Shown here piece by piece: positions 21,109 through 31,754 of a stretch of DNA of 39,616 nucleotides. Origin of the DNA: Spirochaetota bacterium (lineage in GTDB: Bacteria > Spirochaetota > Brachyspiria > Brachyspirales > JACRPF01); the NCBI GenBank assembly GCA_038043445.1, contig JBBTBY010000088.1:1-39616 (forward strand), written 5' to 3'. The translations under genes and the position numbers were made by a program. The notes below the pieces were generated by a model. That model made no database searches, had not been told where the DNA came from, and saw only the letters and a program-made list of their open reading frames with translations. Numbering within the stretch: the stretch's first letter is position 1; every line of letters begins with the position of its first letter.

Positions 21109-22260
21109 TCAGACAAGCGCCGCATGCTCCGAGCTCGCAACGATACCGTCCGCATCGAACAGATTGAAGTAATACACCGTTGTCTGCGGCGGCAGCACTG
21201 CCGACACGCGGGAGGCGTCATCAACAGCGGGGACAGAATACCATGTTCGGTCCGTCCAGAATCCGGTCGCCCGGGTAAAATTCAATTCCGCTTTCACGAT
21301 CTTCCGCGCGCTTGAGAACGATGCCCATGCCGATGTCCTGTCATGACCCTGATCGCCGAAGACGGAAAGCGGAACGCCGCCTTTGCACAGTGCATCGGCA
21401 AAAGCATGTATCTCAGGCGGATTCTCTCCGGCCCCGCCGTGACCGTGCGGCATACGTACGCGAATTGCCAGACGCCGTTCGCCGACAGCGATGCGATACG
21501 ACTTCTGCATCGAGTCCATGGGGAAGGCGAAGTCATTCGTACCGTTCACCCACAGTACAGGCATTTCAGCTTTCGGGAGATAATGCGATGGGTCCCAGAG
21601 CGAAAACCATTGATCGAGTCGAGGCTTATCCCTGTCATTGCGCAGTTGAGCCCCGAGGCCGACCGATGTGCCGTCGAGAAAACCGCAGCCGTATACCGGT
21701 GCCGCGAACGCGAATCGGGCATCGACCCCGGCCGCCATGCAGGTGAGATATCCTCCCCATGAAACGCCGGTAATGCCGATGCGCGTCGGATCTATTTCGG
21801 GGAATGACCGCAGAAGCGAGGCGGCGAGCACGACCGAGCTTACCGCATGGAACGGCCATTGATCGTGCGCCGGCAGTTCGGGAAAAAATGATGCGTCATC
21901 GAGCCCCCATCCGCGCGGGCCCGAATGCTCATGACGCGGCCAGGGATTGCGTGAATAGGGCGATGTATGCCATGCGGGAACACCGCCGCAGGTATCCATT
22001 GCGAGAGCGGCATATCCGCGCGAATTCCAGAGCCGTACCCAATCCGCGAACGCTGTCCCGCCGCCGCCGTGAACGAGGACAATAGCGGGGAGTTTTTCAT
22101 CCGTTGCATGTGTCGGTGCGCCGTACCACGCGAAAACGCGCGTCGGTCTTCCGTTCCATGGCATGCCTTCATAGAACAGCGATGTGACGCCGTCGGCTTC
22201 AAAACCGGGTGCAGGGAACGTTTTTGGAGCATTGAATATCTCGCGAGGGAGATCGATCAT
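21109..22260 (-). CDS. Acetyl-xylan-esterase-like alpha/beta hydrolase
   Basis: A 383-residue hydrolase with GGAGG 6 bases before the ATG at 22260. AIVLVHGGGGTAF is the oxyanion-hole strand, GVSWGGY holds nucleophile S167, NGTNDFAFP the likely acid and MPHGHGG the catalytic His. This order and the large lid (PRGWGLDD region) fit the acetyl-xylan-esterase/dienelactone group. No signal peptide is evident, so it may act on imported, acylated oligosaccharides. It is the last gene of the operon starting at the IclR gene, 51 bases after the activase gene, and converges with the GH71-like gene (39-base gap without a clear terminator). Confidence 0.85.
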   Translation of the reverse strand: MIDLPREIFNAPKTFPAPGFEADGVTSLFYEGMPWNGRPTRVFAWYGAPTHATDEKLPAIVLVHGGGGTAFADWVRLWNSRGYAALAMDTCGGVPAWHTSPYSRNPWPRHEHSGPRGWGLDDASFFPELPAHDQWPFHAVSSVVLAASLLRSFPEIDPTRIGITGVSWGGYLTCMAAGVDARFAFAAPVYGCGFLDGTSVGLGAQLRNDRDKPRLDQWFSLWDPSHYLPKAEMPVLWVNGTNDFAFPMDSMQKSYRIAVGERRLAIRVRMPHGHGGAGENPPEIHAFADALCKGGVPLSVFGDQGHDRTSAWASFSSARKIVKAELNFTRATGFWTDRTWYSVPAVDDASRVSAVLPPQTTVYYFNLFDADGIVASSEHAALV

Positions 22261-22311
22261 GTGTTCCTCCGGAGAGATCGTGCGGTAATCCTATATCCCA
22301 ACGGGCAAAAA

Positions 22312-23214
22312 TCAATTCTGTTCCCCGACAGGCAGGCCGTGATCGATAAATATCCGCGTGAGATCATCGATATGTTCCTGTGTCGGAGCGGCAAGATGCG
22401 AAAGCGGATAGGTAAGCCCGAGCGATCCATATTTTCCCGAGGCGATAGTATGATACGGCATGAGCTCCACGCGTGTGACGGCAGAAAGGCCCGCTATCGC
22501 ATCGGCGATAGCGCTCATCTCCTCTCTGCTGTCATTCACGCCCGGTATCGTCGGTATCCGTATCCATACCGCGGTTTTCATCACACCGAGTTTTCGGAGG
22601 TTCTCACGTATGCGTTTATTGCTTACGCCGGTGAACTGCTTGTGCTTTTCATCATCGATGATCTTGACGTCATAGAGAAAGAGGTCCGTATACGGCAGTA
22701 CCGACTCGAATGTCGCCCACGGCACATTTCCCGCAGTATCGATCACGGTATGAAGGCCCCCCGCCTTGCTTCGCTTCAACAGCTCGAGTACAAATTCACG
22801 CTGCACAAGCGCCTCGCCCCCGGAGAAGGTAACGCCGCCTTGTGATCGCTCATAGAACGGGGCGTCCTTCATCACCTCGGTCATTATCTCATCCGCTGTC
22901 ATGCACTTTCCCGCCATCACGAGCGCTTCAGCGTAACAGACCTCTACGCATTTGCCGCAGCGCGTGCACAGCTCGCGGATAAACACATGCTTCCCGTCCT
23001 CCATGCGCTGTGCGTTGACCGGACACACCTTTGCGCAATTGCCGCAGGCGATGCACTTATGCGGGAAATACTGGAGCTCACGCTGCGCCGATATCGATTC
23101 CGGATTGTGGCACCACATGCATTTGAGATCGCAGCCTTTGAGAAATACCGTCGTGCGGATGCCGGGGCCGTCGTGGATGGAGAAGCGCTGAATGTTGAAT
23201 ACGATGCCTTCCAT
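22312..23214 (-). CDS. Glycyl-radical-enzyme activating enzyme (radical SAM)
   Basis: A 300-residue radical SAM protein that would install the glycyl radical on the enzyme encoded 8 bases upstream. The N-terminal cluster motif is C28-x3-C32-x2-C35 in KGCDLKCMWCHNPES. Two extra 4Fe-4S motifs follow: CIACGNCAKVC (54-64) and CTRCGKCVEVC (83-93), an insert found in activases of eliminase-type glycyl radical enzymes but absent from the pyruvate formate-lyase activase. GGVTFSGGE is the SAM-binding strand. No obvious ribosome-binding site precedes the ATG, so translation is probably coupled to the upstream gene. Oxygen-sensitive, so anaerobic metabolism is implied. Confidence 0.93.
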   Translation of the reverse strand: MEGIVFNIQRFSIHDGPGIRTTVFLKGCDLKCMWCHNPESISAQRELQYFPHKCIACGNCAKVCPVNAQRMEDGKHVFIRELCTRCGKCVEVCYAEALVMAGKCMTADEIMTEVMKDAPFYERSQGGVTFSGGEALVQREFVLELLKRSKAGGLHTVIDTAGNVPWATFESVLPYTDLFLYDVKIIDDEKHKQFTGVSNKRIRENLRKLGVMKTAVWIRIPTIPGVNDSREEMSAIADAIAGLSAVTRVELMPYHTIASGKYGSLGLTYPLSHLAAPTQEHIDDLTRIFIDHGLPVGEQN

Positions 23215-23222
23215 GGCAGCAA

Positions 23223-25403
23223 TTATACGCTGTGCGCCGTGCGTTTCAATACCTCTTCCTTGAGCTCCCGCGTAAGCCGGTTGAAGTATTCCGTATATCC
23301 GCCGATGCGGACGACGAGACTTTCATAATTTTCCGGGTGATCGATAGCGTCCTTGAGCGCCTTTTCATCGACGACCGTGAACTGTATCTGCAGTCCGCCG
23401 AGATCGAAGTAGGTTTGAATGAGCGTTTTCAGTTTCTCGCGTGTTTCAGGCGTTTCGAACACGACCTTCGGCAGACGCATGTTGAGCACAAGCGTCCCGA
23501 TAGCCTTGTATTGAGGGAGTTTTGCCACCGAGAGGAGCATCGATGTAGGCCCGTCACGATCAGTCCCCTGCATCGGTCCGATGGAATCCGCGATGGGGGA
23601 TGAGCGCGTGCGCCCGTCGGGCGTTGCATCGACATCGCGGCCCTCATTAGCAAAGGTAACGAACATGAGGCATGCGGGAAGGAAAAAACCGTTACCCCGC
23701 CGGCATTTCCTCGCGGTGATGCGTTCGAACACAATGCCGGCTATGTCCTCTGCGAGCGCATCCACGGAACGATTATTGTTCCCGAATTTCTCAAGATGTT
23801 TTATCTGTGCAAGAATATCGTCATGGCCGCGCCAGTCATCGGCAAGCATCGCGGAAAATGAGCTCTTTGTAACGCCGAGCTCGCCGTCGAACACCTTTTG
23901 TATGACGAAAAGCGAGTTGACCGCGTTCGCAAGCCCGCCGACGTTCACCACGCTCCCGTTGTACCGAGCACCGCCGGCATTGTACTCAACGCCCCGATCG
24001 ATACAGTCGTCGATGAAGAGTGTTCGTATCGGCAGCGGGCGGAACCGCAGCTTGTATTCCTGATTGAGATTTACCTCATCGATCATTTCATCGATGTTCA
24101 ATACGATATCATCCTTGAACCGCCGCGAGAAATCCTCGAACGACGCGGAATCGTGAAGGGATGACTTTGTCGTGCCGTCGAGCACCTCGATGAGATTTAT
24201 GCCGGCATCGAGCGAGCCGACATTCGAAAGCCCATGGAACATGAGCTCCGTGCAGCCGCCGTAGGCGAATTCGCTCGCATCTTTCCCTTTTACACCGGTG
24301 AACTTCGGTATCGACTTTGCGTATGCTTCTTCATTATAGAGCGCCGGATTCCCCGCGCCGCTGTTGATGGTATCGAACACGCGTTCCCAAACCGCGGGGG
24401 GCATATCCTTCCGGACACGTATTCCGGCATTCGGACGCCGAAAGCCGCCGAGCGTTTCAAGACAGAGATCGGTGAATTCATTGTACGCCGGCTTCCCTTT
24501 ATCATCGCTGCCGCCGAGTATCATATGCCAGCCGCTGTTGGCATCCATGTTCTTCCAGAATTCGACGAGCAGCCGTTTCACCTCCTCGTCGGTTATCGCG
24601 CCGCGTTCTCTATCCGCTTTGTAATACGGATACATGAATTGATCGAAGCGGCCGATGGAATCGGTGCCGTCGACATACCATAGAAAATTGAAAGCGACCA
24701 TCGCCTCATAGAATGAACGCGCCGGCTTCACCGGCATCTGTTCGAATGCGACAGCGAGCGTTCTCCCTTCATCGGAGGATGCCGATGCTATCGCATCGCG
24801 GCATTTTGCATGCAGTATGATGAGCCCGTCAAGGGCATCGAGCAGTGCGTTATAGAACAAGGGGGCATCCCTCGACTCACTTCGGCTTCGCTCAGTGCGA
24901 GCCGCTCGGGAACCATGCCCCCTTGTTCCCCGCGTATGCTGCTCGATGCGCGTTCGATATCCTTCCAGCCCCTCGGCAAGCACACGCCCGTAGTTGATGA
25001 TAGAATGTGTATACCCGCCTCCACCGGTCTTGAATTTTGTGGACATGGGATTGACTGAATAGGTACGCACATCGCCGACAATCCCTCCGAGGATCTGGCG
25101 TTCCGCCGTATCGTTCGATGCATTCGCTAATTCCGTCAGCGTGGGTTCGACACCGATAAGGCCGGATGAATAGTCATATCTGACAGCCTGTTTTGGAATG
25201 AGATTCCAGAGATTGCAGCCGCCGTTCGGGAAAAGCGCGGTGCCGGAATATATGGGGGGCGCGGCGTTCTCGCAGTACCTCCTTAGCGCGCGGGCGGTGC
25301 GGGCGAATATCGGTGCGTTCTTCTCCTCGTAGAAGCCGGCAAGTGTGTGCTGGTTGAGGCGTTTTAGAATACTGCTTTCCAAAGAAACCGATGGTATGCT
25401 CAT
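23223..25403 (-). CDS. Glycyl radical enzyme of unknown specificity, with in-frame repeat insertion
   Basis: A 726-residue member of the pyruvate formate-lyase/glycerol dehydratase superfamily. GGAGATACGC lies before the ATG at 25403. The C-terminal radical loop VRIGGYTEYF has the radical Gly at 702. The thiyl Cys is C384 in YGGCTELMFHG, and E386 gives the C-x-E arrangement of dehydratases and C-X lyases rather than the CC of pyruvate formate-lyase. SNVGSLDAGINL follows. It is shorter than glycerol dehydratase (about 790) and belongs to a branch annotated only as pyruvate formate lyase family. Residues about 160-183 come from a 72-bp inverted-repeat element and are Arg/Ser-rich. Context: sulfatase, glycosidase, activase and esterase. 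Substrate could be a sugar, deoxysugar or substituent; this is inference. Confidence 0.9.
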   Translation of the reverse strand: MSIPSVSLESSILKRLNQHTLAGFYEEKNAPIFARTARALRRYCENAAPPIYSGTALFPNGGCNLWNLIPKQAVRYDYSSGLIGVEPTLTELANASNDTAERQILGGIVGDVRTYSVNPMSTKFKTGGGGYTHSIINYGRVLAEGLEGYRTRIEQHTRGTRGHGSRAARTERSRSESRDAPLFYNALLDALDGLIILHAKCRDAIASASSDEGRTLAVAFEQMPVKPARSFYEAMVAFNFLWYVDGTDSIGRFDQFMYPYYKADRERGAITDEEVKRLLVEFWKNMDANSGWHMILGGSDDKGKPAYNEFTDLCLETLGGFRRPNAGIRVRKDMPPAVWERVFDTINSGAGNPALYNEEAYAKSIPKFTGVKGKDASEFAYGGCTELMFHGLSNVGSLDAGINLIEVLDGTTKSSLHDSASFEDFSRRFKDDIVLNIDEMIDEVNLNQEYKLRFRPLPIRTLFIDDCIDRGVEYNAGGARYNGSVVNVGGLANAVNSLFVIQKVFDGELGVTKSSFSAMLADDWRGHDDILAQIKHLEKFGNNNRSVDALAEDIAGIVFERITARKCRRGNGFFLPACLMFVTFANEGRDVDATPDGRTRSSPIADSIGPMQGTDRDGPTSMLLSVAKLPQYKAIGTLVLNMRLPKVVFETPETREKLKTLIQTYFDLGGLQIQFTVVDEKALKDAIDHPENYESLVVRIGGYTEYFNRLTRELKEEVLKRTAHSV
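24856..24927. repeat. 72-bp inverted-repeat element inserted in frame in the glycyl radical enzyme gene
   Basis: Ends are perfect 13-bp inverted repeats: AACAAGGGGGCAT at 24856-24868 and its complement at 24915-24927. The inside contains a second imperfect palindrome (CTTCGGCTTCG, GAGCCGCTCGG). Length is 24 codons exactly, so the reading frame is preserved. It looks like a small non-autonomous mobile or dispersed repeat; the ends share AACAAGGGG with the palindrome at 38962-38987. Confidence 0.7.
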
Positions 25404-25422
25404 GCGTATCTCCAGGATTGTT

Positions 25423-28400
25423 TCATTTTTTCTCCGTCAGCACCATGACCGGCCACAGATTGGCGTTAATATAACACTGTACCCCGGGAACAATGCTGTA
25501 CTGCGCCTTGAGCCCCTCATCACTGTCGCTCCACATCAACCCGAGACCGATATTCACACCGGCGGTCAAAGACATTGGCTTGATACGATTTTGGGGAAAA
25601 GCGATCTCGTAAATATATCCGTCCGCGGTCCGCTTAAAAGCCGTCTTGATCTCCGGTTCAACCATATTTCCGCCAGCAATGCCGGAAAGCTGAAAATCCG
25701 GCACATTGCGGAGATAGGCCGTCAATTTATTTCCTTCAAGGTCAGGACTAAAGTCATAACTATAATCATTCACATCCATACGCGGTGACTTTGTCTTTGA
25801 AAAATTCGCCCGCGCATCGCAGCGGGTGTCAAAGTATACCTGCAGGCAATCGTTTTTATACCGGGAGTCAATGGGGTGTTTCTCATCAACGCTGAATTTG
25901 TCGTCTACAACTTTGGAGCAGAGGTAGAAATTATTTTCATCCCAGGCAACTTTGAAGAACGCCTGGAAGTCTCCCGGGTAGCGGGCTTTTTCGTTTGGTT
26001 TTACCGCATCGGCGCGGTTTGCTTTGGTGATCTGCACCTCTGGAATATTCTGCCAATCATCCAAATCGCCGTCGATCACCAGCGAGGTTCTTGCTTTTTT
26101 TACTTTCAATGCGGTCAATGAAATATTTTCCTGAAACGCTTGTCCGTTATTTTCCTGCAACGAAACGGGTACGTGCAAATCAATTATTCTATCAAAAAGC
26201 GGCTGTTGTTTAAGCGGCGCCTGTATTCTTTCTGCACCCAATAAAGAAACGGAAAGTTCACAAGATTTGCCGCCAATATTTACCACTCCCTTCCAATCTT
26301 TGGAAAACATATTCTTAAAAGTAATTTGCAGGTTATTGTCGGCGGTCAATGCCGACGATACGGTAAATGGCGACATCTCAACGCCTTTCGCAACGGCTTT
26401 TTTTAAGGCGGCGGATATTTTCCCCAGAGAGCCCGGCTCGCCTTTAATGAAAACCGGAAATGGAGAGAGCGGTATAGTAACGCTCCCGGTTTCATTTTTT
26501 TTAATTTCTCGTCTGGCGCCCATCATGTCATAAAACTTTACCGGAATATCTCCGAAGTCAGCATCAAACTCCGGCTCCGGCGCACGCCCGCGGTCAACAT
26601 CCGGGATATATGACCATACGGCTGCTACGGGCTCACTGTTAGCGGTTTCAAAAACGTAGGCGCGCGAGTCACGTGCAAAGCGGATGTCTTCACGGAAATC
26701 GGCGTCGCCCAGCATGTTGCCAAGTGTGTTTATTACTCTGAATTGGGCGTTAGGCGAATAATAGTGATCCAAAGTCATACTCAAATGGTGTAAACTTCCG
26801 GATGTTACTGCCTTTATGCGTTTTTTATATTTCATTGCCGCCAGATGACTTCGCATAATAAAAGCGGAAGATATTTTTTCACCCCAACCCATGTCATAGG
26901 AAACAGCCGGCATGTTCTTCCAATGTACGGCAGTAGTCCCTCCCGCATAAGGATTCAAGTTCCAGGCGGGAATATTGTATCCCGCATACCAAATACCTTC
27001 GTTGAAAAAAACATCTGTGTCGCCGTATCCATTTTCATCAAGCATTTTCAAAAGGATGGCAGTGTCATCATCCAGATCCGGATTTTCCGGGCCGGTCCGA
27101 TACGTATGAGCGGCAATAGCATCAAATTGAGGTGTTTTCCCTACGGCTTGTATCAAACGCTTTAAGTACGGTATGGTGCGGTCTGGAGTCAATGATGCTA
27201 TTCCCTGGTCAAGATATACCCTGGCGTTTGGATTTCCTTTTTTAACGCCGCGCCAGAAAGCATGAAGCATGTTGGCTGCATCAGCAATCGGCATATTGGC
27301 AAAACGGCAATCCAGCTCGCCGATGAGCGCCCATGCATCGATCCAGTGCATAGAGCGGACAAGGCGTTCTGTAATGGTTTCGATTTGCCTTTCCAGTTCA
27401 GGACTACAATTGGTCGCTGTTTCCAATAGTACAATTTCATTCGTACTGCCGTCTGAAAGGATAAGTTTAAACGGCTTGATATAAACTGTTTCCATCATAA
27501 GACCCTGTTCAAAGTGCAGGCCATAGTTCGTTATATGATCAAAATAATCTTCTTTTGGAAATTCCCTGGTTGTTTTAGCATTACCTCCATCAATAGCGCC
27601 TATTCCAAAATATTTTACGAAATTAAGAAAGTTTGTTCGATCGGGCGCTTTAGACACTGTCTCTTGGATATAGAGACTGAAAAACTCTTTGTTCTTATGT
27701 GTTCCCGTCAGGTAATCCATTATATTAATCCTGAAATAATCGGTATAGCTCAAACCGCTGCCGGAAAACTCCGTACGGACAATGTTTATCCCTTTCAGAA
27801 AATCTTTTGTTTTCCACGGCAATTTTATTTTTGCCTTACCGTTTTCATCCGTTTGAAATTCAAAGGTACTCTTGCTCTGCAGCACCTTCTGGAAATTATC
27901 CACGGCCACCTGCACGGTACCGTTCATCTTTTTCGGAGCGTCATGAATTATCAATTCCGATTCGAACGGCGACTGGCTTTCGACATTGGCGTCCGGCTGT
28001 CCGTTTACCATGAGCTCCGCGCTGGGCTCAGACTGAAAATCACTCTGTTCCCCTTCGATAACTTGAATTCCATCGACCCATGTTTTACCGCCGGGAGTAC
28101 CGCTGACGCTGAGTGTCAGTGCGGCAGCCGTGCCTCCGGGTGCCTCCGGCGCAAAACTAAAATTGGTTGAATACCGTGTCCACTCGCGTGAATTAACTTT
28201 TATGTTAAAGAATCGTCTTTCATTAACCCGTTCGCCCCAAAGAGGGATCCAGCTCTGGATGTTAATATTTAAAACAGGACTGTCTTTGCTGTCAGTTTTT
28301 GCCCAATAGCTTACCGAATATATTTTCCGTTTATTCACTGGAAATGTAAAAGAATAGAGCATTTGCTCCCGTAAGGGATACTGTTGTGTGAAATGACGGA

Positions 28401-29442
28401 TAAGCATGCTGTTTTTTCCATATTTTGAAACGGTATTGTCAATTTCAAAAATCTTCAGACCTTTGGAATCCGTTGGCCAATAACCATTGATTTTCCAGTA
28501 TCTGAAACCCGCTTCGAACGACGCATTTTGCATCAGATTGATGCCGGCACGCCAGACCGGGGTATTCAGATCGTCCGCGGCTTTGATGTCGATGCCCGCG
28601 TAGGCGTCGGATTGTTTGATCTCGACACCGGCGCGCAAGTCAAGCGTAAACGATTCTTTGCCGGCCGAGTCTGGTTTAATACGCACAAGAATTCCCGCTG
28701 AATCGCCTGATGCAAGAAGCACACCCGGGTATAAACTATTGACAGTAAAAGCAGGTATTTTTGAATCGGCAAACATTGCCAGTGACGTGAACTTATTGGT
28801 GTCACAAAGAATTGTATTTTTCTCGTATTTGCTTAGCGGAAAATCTTTCCCGTCTACATTGAAAAACATACCCGACATAATACTTGTGGAAGGCGCAGTT
28901 ATTCCTATAAACCCGGCAACAAGCAATTTTTCTGAACCTTCAGGAATCTGGCGTTCCGCATCAAAACGGATAAGCCCATCAGGTAAAAGAGTGATATCGA
29001 TTTTTACATCACCGAGGATGAGCCCGGGTTTGTCCAATGGAAACTTCGCCGTAATGGCAACTTTCTTCTCAGAGGCGAAAGGTTTTATCTGTACATCCTT
29101 GAATTGATGCAATTGTAAATATCCAAAAGCGGTGTTCGCAGTATACGTCATGCTGAACTGCGCGCGCGAGCTCTGGCTTTTCAGCGATATTTTCCCATCT
29201 GCGTCAATCGCAAGGCTTTTTTCCCCGAATAAAAAGCGCCCGCCGGTAAACTCGCCCTGGTTCTGGACAATGGCATCCGGTTTTTTATCGGAGTTCAGAA
29301 ATGGCGGGGTGACCGTGGTGAGCACGCGGGCGCTCAATTTTAAATCTTGCGCGGCTTCTGGTGCAGCCCAGGTGTGCGCGACAAGCAGCAGTAGCGCTGC
29401 TGTGAATACCAGATTAATGTTGACCAGGCTTGTTGTTTGCAT
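25423..29442 (-). CDS. Secreted GH39-like clan GH-A glycosidase with CBM4/9-like and CBM9-like modules
   Basis: A 1339-residue exported enzyme. Residues 1-26 form a signal peptide (ALLLLVAHTWAAPEA). After N-terminal beta-domains, a CBM4/9-like jelly roll starts near 300 (INLMQNASFEAGFRYWKING). The barrel (about 590-930) contains IGELD with candidate acid/base E709 and FFNEGIWYAG with candidate nucleophile E815. The C-terminal 190 residues (ARTSLVIDGDLDDWQNIPE, FQAFFKVAWDENNFYLC) match a CBM9-type xylan/cellulose-end-binding domain. It starts one base after the sulfatase stop and ends 19 bases before the glycyl radical enzyme gene. GC is clearly lower than in the flanking genes, suggesting separate origin. 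Confidence 0.82.
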   Translation of the reverse strand: MQTTSLVNINLVFTAALLLLVAHTWAAPEAAQDLKLSARVLTTVTPPFLNSDKKPDAIVQNQGEFTGGRFLFGEKSLAIDADGKISLKSQSSRAQFSMTYTANTAFGYLQLHQFKDVQIKPFASEKKVAITAKFPLDKPGLILGDVKIDITLLPDGLIRFDAERQIPEGSEKLLVAGFIGITAPSTSIMSGMFFNVDGKDFPLSKYEKNTILCDTNKFTSLAMFADSKIPAFTVNSLYPGVLLASGDSAGILVRIKPDSAGKESFTLDLRAGVEIKQSDAYAGIDIKAADDLNTPVWRAGINLMQNASFEAGFRYWKINGYWPTDSKGLKIFEIDNTVSKYGKNSMLIRHFTQQYPLREQMLYSFTFPVNKRKIYSVSYWAKTDSKDSPVLNINIQSWIPLWGERVNERRFFNIKVNSREWTRYSTNFSFAPEAPGGTAAALTLSVSGTPGGKTWVDGIQVIEGEQSDFQSEPSAELMVNGQPDANVESQSPFESELIIHDAPKKMNGTVQVAVDNFQKVLQSKSTFEFQTDENGKAKIKLPWKTKDFLKGINIVRTEFSGSGLSYTDYFRINIMDYLTGTHKNKEFFSLYIQETVSKAPDRTNFLNFVKYFGIGAIDGGNAKTTREFPKEDYFDHITNYGLHFEQGLMMETVYIKPFKLILSDGSTNEIVLLETATNCSPELERQIETITERLVRSMHWIDAWALIGELDCRFANMPIADAANMLHAFWRGVKKGNPNARVYLDQGIASLTPDRTIPYLKRLIQAVGKTPQFDAIAAHTYRTGPENPDLDDDTAILLKMLDENGYGDTDVFFNEGIWYAGYNIPAWNLNPYAGGTTAVHWKNMPAVSYDMGWGEKISSAFIMRSHLAAMKYKKRIKAVTSGSLHHLSMTLDHYYSPNAQFRVINTLGNMLGDADFREDIRFARDSRAYVFETANSEPVAAVWSYIPDVDRGRAPEPEFDADFGDIPVKFYDMMGARREIKKNETGSVTIPLSPFPVFIKGEPGSLGKISAALKKAVAKGVEMSPFTVSSALTADNNLQITFKNMFSKDWKGVVNIGGKSCELSVSLLGAERIQAPLKQQPLFDRIIDLHVPVSLQENNGQAFQENISLTALKVKKARTSLVIDGDLDDWQNIPEVQITKANRADAVKPNEKARYPGDFQAFFKVAWDENNFYLCSKVVDDKFSVDEKHPIDSRYKNDCLQVYFDTRCDARANFSKTKSPRMDVNDYSYDFSPDLEGNKLTAYLRNVPDFQLSGIAGGNMVEPEIKTAFKRTADGYIYEIAFPQNRIKPMSLTAGVNIGLGLMWSDSDEGLKAQYSIVPGVQCYINANLWPVMVLTEKK

Positions 29443-29443
29443 T

Positions 29444-30952
29444 CTATTTCCGCCTCATGAAGTCCCATGCCGTCGGCTTGATCGTCTCTCCATACCTTTC
29501 TACCCACGCACGGTTCACTTCATCCAATCGTCTGCTTATGACCGACCAGGATTCGAATGGAATATTTTTATTCTCCGCAAGGTCATGGCATTGTTTTTTC
29601 AAGTTCTTTAACAATTCGCTGGAATGAGTGTCATCGATCAGATTGCGCAATTGACAGGGATCTTCCTGATTGTCGTATAATATTATCGGAGCCGCCATGG
29701 ATTCTGCATAGGTATACCGCTCCGTTCGGATGCCTCGATACGCCGGCAAATTCCACTCCCACGGACACATGATGTACGCCGCATCCGGCGTTTTCTGCGC
29801 TTCGCCTCTGATGAGCGGTGCGAAATTCATACCCTCGCAATAATCCGGCACCGGCAGCCCGAGTAATTCCATGAGCGTCGGCATGATATCCGGCGTGTTG
29901 AACGGCCGTGATGTAGTGCCGGCAGGGACCTCTTTTGGATAGCGGAGAATGAATGGAACGTTGATCGATTCCTCCCATGGGTGGACTTTTTGAAAGGCGC
30001 CCTGCGAAAAAAGCATATCGCCGTGGTCGGAGGTAAACACGACTATTGTATTATCGGCAATTCCGCATTGTTCCAGGTGATCGAGGATTCGCCCGACATT
30101 GTGGTCTAATGCAGAAATCGCCGCATAGTAATCGCGCAGCATGATCAGGTCGGGTGTATTCGGCATCGACCCTCTGCCAATTGATTTATCAAAACCATAC
30201 CGTTTGTGCCATTCCACCACCTCTTCGGGCGATAGATATGTATCGACAGGCTTGCAGCAGCCGGGAACACACGTTGGATAATTGAAAATATCACGCGGGA
30301 CATTCGGACGGAATTCCAGCATCTCGAGATCATACATATCCTTCCAACGGTTCGGAACTGTATGGTAGGGGTCATGTGGCGGTCCATAAGAGAGGAAAAG
30401 CGAGAAGGGATTATTTTTATGCTCTGAAATATATTGTAATGAAATGTCAGTCTGTATATCCGGCTCGTATCCATAAAATCTTACCGGGGACGGATCGTCG
30501 TTGAGATAGTACCACCCGTCAAGATAATCGTGAGTGCAATTCACTCCCACCCAAAGAGCATCGAATCCATGACGGTGCTCTCCCGGCGGCATGAATGTCC
30601 GGCGGTATCCGGCGGGGCCGAAGAGATGCCATTTTCCGACCCAGCCGGTTTTGTATCCGCCGGCCCGCAGAGCATGTCCGATACCTTTGCCGTCGATCGG
30701 CAAGGGGACGTCGTTTGAAAGCACACCGGTCGTTGTCGGGTAGCGTCCGCTTATGAGACAGGCACGATGCGGTGTACAGGAGGCAAGGCATGATACTGCG
30801 TTACTGAAACGGATGCCTTCACCAGCTAAGCGATCTAAGTTCGGGGTATGTATCTGGTGATTACCGGCACACCCCATATCCATGCCGCGCATTTGGTCTG
30901 CAAAAATGAAAACGAGATTGGGACGAGATGTTGTTCCGGTTTTATCAGACAT
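29444..30952 (-). CDS. Type I sulfatase (formylglycine-dependent)
   Basis: A 502-residue sulfatase of the arylsulfatase/choline-sulfatase family. The maturation motif is C59-T-P-H-R followed by ACLISGRYP, so C59 would be converted to formylglycine. NLVFIFADQMR has the metal-binding Asp near residue 19, GKWHLFG the Lys-x-His pair, and FTSDHGD the second metal site. GGGAG lies 6 bases before the ATG at 30952, and the gene overlaps the IclR stop by 8 bases. No signal peptide is visible, which points to cytoplasmic desulfation of imported sugars unless a different start is used. No sulfatase-maturing enzyme is encoded in the window. Confidence 0.92.
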   Translation of the reverse strand: MSDKTGTTSRPNLVFIFADQMRGMDMGCAGNHQIHTPNLDRLAGEGIRFSNAVSCLASCTPHRACLISGRYPTTTGVLSNDVPLPIDGKGIGHALRAGGYKTGWVGKWHLFGPAGYRRTFMPPGEHRHGFDALWVGVNCTHDYLDGWYYLNDDPSPVRFYGYEPDIQTDISLQYISEHKNNPFSLFLSYGPPHDPYHTVPNRWKDMYDLEMLEFRPNVPRDIFNYPTCVPGCCKPVDTYLSPEEVVEWHKRYGFDKSIGRGSMPNTPDLIMLRDYYAAISALDHNVGRILDHLEQCGIADNTIVVFTSDHGDMLFSQGAFQKVHPWEESINVPFILRYPKEVPAGTTSRPFNTPDIMPTLMELLGLPVPDYCEGMNFAPLIRGEAQKTPDAAYIMCPWEWNLPAYRGIRTERYTYAESMAAPIILYDNQEDPCQLRNLIDDTHSSELLKNLKKQCHDLAENKNIPFESWSVISRRLDEVNRAWVERYGETIKPTAWDFMRRK

Positions 30953-31754
30953 GCTGCACTCCCGCGAATTGCCTGCCCGTCCTGCCCATAGTCTCTGAAA
31001 TGCGATTTGATGCTTCGATAACGACCGATGCGATCCCCTTCATCCGCTCTTCCGAAAGCCGGTATGCGGGCGCAACGATACCAATGGACGCTATTCCCAT
31101 TGTATCCGTGCCATGCACCGGTGCGCCGATACAGCGAACGCCGTTCAGATATTCCTCATAGTCGAACGCAAAGCCGTTCGTTCTGATGCCGGACAATTCT
31201 GAACGAAGTTTCCCGCCATCGGTTATGGTCCTCTCCGTGAGAGATGCCAGACCCTTCCTGATATATTCATTCATGAATTTTTCATCCGCGAACGCAAGCA
31301 TGCACTTGCCGAATGCTGAAGCATGCGGATACAGTATCGATCCGGTATCGGCATGTATGCGCAATGGATTCGTCGTTTCGATCTGGTCCAGCAGCACCAT
31401 ACGGTCACCCTGCAGAATTGCTAAATGCACGGTTTCGCCGGTCTGTTCGCTGAGTTCCTTCATCACCGGCAGCGCCTTTGTACGCATATCGATGCGGCTT
31501 CCCGCGATCTGGCCGAGCACGAAGAACTTCGCGCCGAGAGCATAACCCGTGCCGCTTTTCTCGGCGTATCCGCGATGCTCCATCTCCATGACGATGCGGT
31601 ACACCGTGTTCACCGGCATTTCGAGTGCGCGGGAAAGCTCATTGATGCCGAACGCGCGGTTCTCCCTCGCCATGAGCTCGACGATATCGAACATTTTGCT
31701 TATCGCGGGGGCGGCATATTTTTGCTTCTTTTCAGCCAAATACTTGCTCCACAT
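30945..31754 (-). CDS. IclR-family transcriptional regulator
   Basis: A 269-residue regulator: winged helix-turn-helix at about 14-75 (AISKMFDIVELMARENRAFGI..., PVNTVYRIVMEME), then the IclR effector domain (about 85-262, ALPVMKELSEQTGETVHLAIL, PHASAFGKCMLAF, IGAPVHG). It heads the operon with the sulfatase and following genes, so it probably regulates its own operon. A strong promoter and a palindrome directly before the ATG support autoregulation. Ligands of IclR proteins are often aromatic or sugar acids; the ligand here is unknown. Confidence 0.92.
   Translation of the reverse strand: MWSKYLAEKKQKYAAPAISKMFDIVELMARENRAFGINELSRALEMPVNTVYRIVMEMEHRGYAEKSGTGYALGAKFFVLGQIAGSRIDMRTKALPVMKELSEQTGETVHLAILQGDRMVLLDQIETTNPLRIHADTGSILYPHASAFGKCMLAFADEKFMNEYIRKGLASLTERTITDGGKLRSELSGIRTNGFAFDYEEYLNGVRCIGAPVHGTDTMGIASIGIVAPAYRLSEERMKGIASVVIEASNRISETMGRTGRQFAGVQHV

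Follow-up and report, generated by a model that had tools for sequence, protein, structure and literature searches.

The stretch of DNA analyzed here, which we refer to as the window, is 39,616 nt long and carries on its minus strand a gene for a glycyl radical enzyme (GRE) into which a nested palindromic element is built. The genes and the parts of the element, whose levels are explained below, are as follows.

22312-23214, minus strand: radical-SAM glycyl-radical-enzyme activase, adjoining the GRE gene (TIGR02494, 368.9 bits, exceeding the cut-off of 174.35)
23223-25403, minus strand: GRE of the PFL2/3 type, 726 residues, host of the element (Pfam, NCBIfam)
24855-24928, minus strand: nested palindromic element, whole, 74 nt (26 + 2 x 24), coding from base two of codon 159 through codon 183
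24916-24928, minus strand: level 0, 5' arm GAACAAGGGGGCA (from the sequence; found elsewhere with the 3' arm alone as a 26-nt palindrome)
24904-24915, minus strand: level 1 unit, 5' half TGGTTCCCGAGC (the 24-nt unit YGGTTSCCGAGCNNNGYCGAGGSA is the sole unit of 50-nt copies and also turns up in other contexts)
24877-24903, minus strand: level 2 unit, GGCTCGCACT-GAGC-GAA-GCCGA-AGTGA, 27 nt replacing the NNN of level 1, net +24 nt (from comparing 50-nt with 74-nt copies)
24868-24876, minus strand: level 1 unit, 3' half GTCGAGGGA (from comparing copies)
24855-24867, minus strand: level 0, 3' arm TGCCCCCTTGTTC (from the sequence)

The host protein is assigned as a GRE by its PFL-like domain (Pfam, E = 4.3e-66), its C-terminal glycine-radical domain (Gly_radical, E = 4.5e-26) and its activase partner; it also matches the NCBIfam PFL2-3 model (E = 2.9e-83), at a score under the curated cut-off of that model. 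The reading frame is open throughout and the glycine-radical motif is present, and since both GRE domains are intact the protein may well be active, a prediction made from sequence. Nearby genes (window 21109-31754) encode a sulfatase, an acetyl-xylan-esterase-like protein, a CBM9 protein and an IclR regulator, a neighborhood that suggests the use of a polysaccharide or sugar-derived substrate.

The initial annotation had described, at 24856-24927, a mobile-like element with 13-bp terminal inverted repeats. The inverted repeat is real, but it was drawn one base short at each end: the perfect arms are 14 bp long (GAACAAGGGGGCAT / ATGCCCCCTTGTTC) and the whole spans 74 nt. Its placement in frame within the radical enzyme gene was described correctly, as the copy runs from the middle base of codon 159 to the final base of codon 183, filling 25 codons, (G)TRGHGSRAARTERSRSESRDAPLF, that add an Arg/Ser-rich stretch (residues 159-183) to the protein. 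The copy is flanked by TTATA and CCCCG, with no target-site duplication. When folded as single-stranded DNA the element has a z-score of -4.8, and 0/200 shuffles fold equally well; for the copies of 50 to 98 nt described below, folding recovers the stems only in part. The repeat is not a product of chance: 72 bp of it recur twice more in the same genome, with identities of 89% (E = 8.7e-21) and 88% (E = 1.4e-18), and once in G001, a genome from another genus of the same family, at 86% identity (E = 4.8e-18). A separate 11-bp perfect inverted repeat, GCATCGAGCAG / CTGCTCGATGC, surrounds the element within the coding sequence (window 24837-24949) at spacings of 9 and 10 nt, possibly by chance. 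We considered it as a further outer layer of the palindrome, but this is unsupported by an in-register test because the repeat lies one base out of register.

We aligned the window GRE with 17 homologous sequences, the best of which is about 36% identical to it. From this family alignment, we infer that the element occupies a linker joining two helices close to the N-terminus of the enzyme, and the linker is variable in length (23-32 residues in the homologues), in keeping with the earlier suggestion of a tolerated loop. The element-coded segment is absent from 17/17 aligned homologues, as had been expected of an insertion; the exact empty site was not seen, because the search gave no homologue above about 36% identity. 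The linker of the window GRE has 39 residues, and subtracting the 25 that are element-coded leaves 14, so the initial view that 24 codons had simply been added does not hold: 25 element-coded residues are present, but the net gain is only +7 to +16 residues rather than +25. Because of this small net change, about ten native linker residues were probably lost or overwritten, either before or after the element arrived. An AlphaFold2 model of the GRE, computed with a two-sequence alignment only, reached a pLDDT of 34.8 and was not used. We also weighed whether the segment could belong to the enzyme proper, as a functional loop of this GRE subfamily whose coding sequence merely happens to be palindromic. 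A fully open reading frame with both domains and the radical motif in place is what such a loop would predict, but with the segment found in 0/17 homologues and the same nucleotides found in unrelated genes and between genes, we regard this explanation as extremely unlikely.

The element belongs to a dispersed family. Our sequence base consisted of assembled genomes, with fetched loci plus samples of 370 kb and 400 kb, and the window's own genome (G000) comprises 5.13 Mb in 178 contigs. The half-site AACAAGGGGGCAT, allowing at most one mismatch, gave 61 matches, compared with 3 for its reversed control, and dozens of its occurrences could be paired. The basic form of the family is a 26-nt palindrome, GAACAAGGG(NN)CATG(N'N')CCCTTGTTC, with nothing between its arms. 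For the census, all half-sites in the fetched DNA were taken and a complementary arm was sought, with all total lengths of 24 to 129 nt permitted. Among the 60 matches, 59 have lengths of 26 + 24k nt, namely 26 nt (n = 43), 50 nt (n = 12), 74 nt (n = 3) and 98 nt (n = 1); the remaining one, at 44 nt, is an AT-rich chance match that we rejected. The family thus counts 19 copies in G001 and 40 in the own genome, and the search for further copies that the initial annotation had called for is answered by these 40. Close relatives of the window element in its genome lie on contigs C13 (74 nt) and C90 (with one-base decay), alongside shorter ones, and the count of 59 leaves out two decayed copies, of 25 and 73 nt, each with one base lost.

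Comparison of the size classes reveals how the longer copies are built. In the 50-nt copies, the added 24 nt read YGGTTCCC-GAGC-NNN-GYCGA-GGGA and lie between the CA and TG of the palindrome center. In the 74-nt copies, the NNN of this first unit is exchanged for the 27 nt GGCTCGCACT-GAGC-NNN-GYCGA-AGTGA, and the 98-nt copy goes one step further, with 27 nt that form a third hairpin of the same core type in place of the NNN of the second unit. As judged from these alignments of copies, each step of the ladder is a 24-nt hairpin with the core GAGC-NNN-GYCGA, placed at the tip of the previous hairpin. One could instead attribute the 24-nt spacing to selection for the reading frame or to tandem slippage, as 24 is divisible by three and copies within genes must stay in frame. 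Reading-frame selection is not the cause of the ladder, however, because intergenic copies keep the same 26/50/74/98-nt steps as intragenic ones, and the added units are new hairpins with their own arms, invariably at the center of the previous core, rather than tandem copies of flanking sequence; we therefore consider this alternative very unlikely.

The first-level 24-nt unit is not confined to this palindrome family. It also caps palindromes of other sequence (GGACAGCGGGGCA..., GAACACGGGGCTT...), is occasionally present outside any palindrome, and occurs in 12/296 genomes of the phylum, spread over several families, with 0 matches for its reversed control. It was not found in the many genomes of the sister family of the same order, and its sequence strings had no match in the literature searched. 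A hairpin cluster with the GAGC-NNN-GYCGA core and other arms (e.g. GGTCGT/ACGACC) was observed in the own genome (L004 / L251:1003-1107, contig C73). It is possible, though we propose it only tentatively, that the 24-nt unit moves independently, as a module of its own that recognizes hairpin tips (either the triloop of GAGC-NNN-GYCGA or the center of a perfect palindrome) and prefers to insert there, through an undescribed enzyme or through replication-based copying. If this is true, palindromes would grow like nested dolls, eight codons per step, both inside and outside genes.

Three of the 40 own-genome copies are internal to open reading frames, as delimited by a home-made codon-usage gene caller rather than by annotation: those of the window GRE, a GH106-like protein and an SIS/GKRP-like protein. 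These copies share the frame xGA-ACA-AGG-GGN-CAT, with the bare form translated as (R)TRGHDPLF or ARGHDPLF and the window form as TRGHGSRAARTERSRSESRDAPLF. The case for a single preferred frame is statistically weak, given the few independent genes and the fact that the GGGGTCATGA variant has a stop in one of the three frames. In G001, the SIS/GKRP-like protein has an orthologue (57% identity) without RTRGHDPLF, a net difference of +10 residues for the own-genome protein, and the GH106-like protein has orthologues in G001 (67% identity) and G040 (58%) that are likewise without the segment. The best evidence for gain (or loss) of whole units at a fixed place comes from the sigma-70-like paralogues of G001, because these differ at one site: 26-, 50- and 98-nt versions occupy the same homologous position in a variable C-terminal linker. 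Other G001 paralogues seem to keep decayed remains there, and two more palindromic sites within this linker also contain nested units. From these sequences, the linker looks like a hot spot of protein linker evolution. In seven of the paralogue loci (L100, L176, L178, L180, L188, L190 and L191), the linkers consist largely of three different nested palindromic repeats, with a length that depends on the paralogue.

The other 37/40 own-genome copies lie outside open reading frames, many of them at most 40 nt from the 3' end of a gene. Among intergenic copies that face a gene 3' end, 21/39 are within 40 nt of the stop codon or overlap it. This position, together with arms that begin GAACAA and finish TTGTTC around a strong stem whose pairs covary, would fit a functional RNA or DNA signal, such as a bidirectional intrinsic-terminator-like or mRNA-stabilizing hairpin that is kept for its function and lies within the GRE gene by chance. 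But a U run after the stem is not consistent, all Rfam matches fall far below cut-off, no role of this kind is obvious for the copies in three unrelated reading frames and in sigma-factor linkers, and the nested growth is left unexplained. We therefore judge this explanation to be unlikely.

Some of the bare palindromes in the own genome are found within a MITE-like unit of 113-114 bp with 16-bp ends GACTGTCGCGAAAATA. Examples of this unit are located at L233:10416-10529, L241:4050-4163 and L241:6385-6497, and each unit with these ends carries a palindrome or near-palindrome near one end, where the sequence varies by copy while self-complementarity is kept. These units lend some support to the view that the window repeat is an ordinary MITE or the remnant of an insertion sequence, its 72 bp bounded by terminal inverted repeats and mobilized by the transposase of another element. 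The window copy, however, is without the GACTGTCGCGAAAATA ends and without a target-site duplication, the G001 copies have other surroundings, and the minimal form of the family has no interior at all, with sizes on the 24-nt ladder; we find a conventional remnant quite unlikely. Of the earlier description as a mobile-like element, the dispersed repeat stands, while a classical terminal-inverted-repeat transposable element is unsupported, because the two ends make up the arms of a single palindrome whose minimal form is 26 nt, the interior is two nested hairpin units, and no target site is duplicated.

A search for Y1/RAYT transposases (PF01797) gave no match in the own genome and three in G001. 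At one of the G001 loci (L129), related GRACAAGGGGCTT palindromes lie on either side. An association with RAYTs was considered and rejected, as there is no full 24-nt unit beside the three G001 loci. Long palindromes with (nearly) zero loop and an ATATAT-rich center are present in G001 at L130:1239-1286, L130:1754-1803 and L271:846-887, and the two at L130 surround a Y1-transposase gene, as REPs flank RAYTs.

The arms of the family stay matched as they change. Across 20 distinct 26-nt palindromes, 96% of cells are paired and 23 cells are changed on both sides, a level reached by 0/500 shuffles; by this measure, the stem bases covary. In four G001 copies, the palindrome runs outwards for a further 9-11 bp in sequence private to the locus (random expectation for an extension of at least 6 bp, 3.5e-4), and in the sigma paralogues the extended arms differ in sequence yet remain matched. 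Template switching during replication can create and repair such stems (PMC8794818), and it is the likely process that keeps these arms matched.

Taken together, we favor, with a probability of roughly 0.78 and on the strength of the sequence comparisons, the reading that these are small non-autonomous repeats, similar to REPs and to Rickettsia palindromes, that settle in tolerated protein linkers, grow at the tip by nested 24-nt units and have their arms kept matched. Under this reading, palindromes would arrive first and grow afterwards: a GAACAAGGGGGCA/TGCCCCCTTGTTC palindrome would have been placed in the GRE linker, followed by two 24-nt hairpin units, each set at the tip of the one below. 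Growth would leave the reading frame unchanged at each step because the unit of 24 nt equals eight codons, and replication template switching or hairpin-templated repair would then keep the arms matched. The element would be neutral or selfish and dispensable for the enzyme, which would carry the stretch as a tolerated insertion. No candidate for the enzyme that places the units was identified in the own genome, which has no Y1/RAYT match. The window copy is an unusually clear case of a tiny repeated DNA translated as part of a protein, and the natural series of 26, 50, 74 and 98 nt, including paralogues that differ at one site, allows the growth steps to be read. It makes two old questions testable, namely how tiny repeats without genes spread and how perfect arms are maintained, and it offers a possible route by which proteins gain linkers in fixed eight-residue steps.

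The Rickettsia palindromic elements (RPEs) are not known to share the sequence of the present family. The Nostoc small dispersed repeats (SDRs) studied by Elhai et al. in 2008 are reportedly about 21-27 nt long and insert precisely, also into other repeats; a nested-hairpin ladder in coding palindromes is not known from that work. The nested 24-nt ladder may be related to the cyanobacterial repeats. SDRs of Nostoc are named in PMC3116915. Palindromes in frame within proteins are known in Rickettsia and Wolbachia, and RPEs (Ogata et al. 2000, 2002) measure 105-150 bp (PMC10969869, PMC2229807). Like RPEs, the present family is a dispersed palindromic repeat found in frame in unrelated reading frames (three in the own genome, and the G001 sigma paralogues) as well as between genes, and it is absent from orthologues or homologues of its host proteins (GRE, SIS/GKRP and GH106). 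Unlike RPEs, it measures 26/50/74/98 nt and grows by nested 24-nt units, and its host is distant from Rickettsia. REPs are palindromes of 20-40 bp, mostly just behind stop codons, with some inside reading frames and translated; the GTAG- and CGTC-tagged types are seen within reading frames in several phyla, and CGTC types occur in Spirochaetes too (PMC3733652). The present 26-nt palindrome resembles them in being mostly intergenic, with many copies near gene 3' ends and some in reading frames, but the window copy has no GTAG or CGTC tag at its ends (flanks TTATA and CCCCG), the own genome has no RAYT gene (the usual companion of REPs, though not strictly required), and its units are nested at the tip, whereas those of REP dimers and clusters are arranged next to one another. 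The family is set apart from RPEs and REPs because it differs in size, tag or transposase. With MITEs it shares inverted arms, but not, at the window copy, a surrounding target-site duplication. The mitochondria of Nematomorpha have perfect inverted repeats in coding sequence that stay matched over evolution, for which template switching has been considered (PMC6649704). The present palindromes are likewise perfect coding inverted repeats kept matched, but those of Nematomorpha code for conserved residues and have not been presented as a dispersed family sharing one sequence. Coding in-frame palindromes, best known from Rickettsia, are thus already known and are here extended to a distant lineage; the unusual and new part is the strict nested 24-nt ladder.
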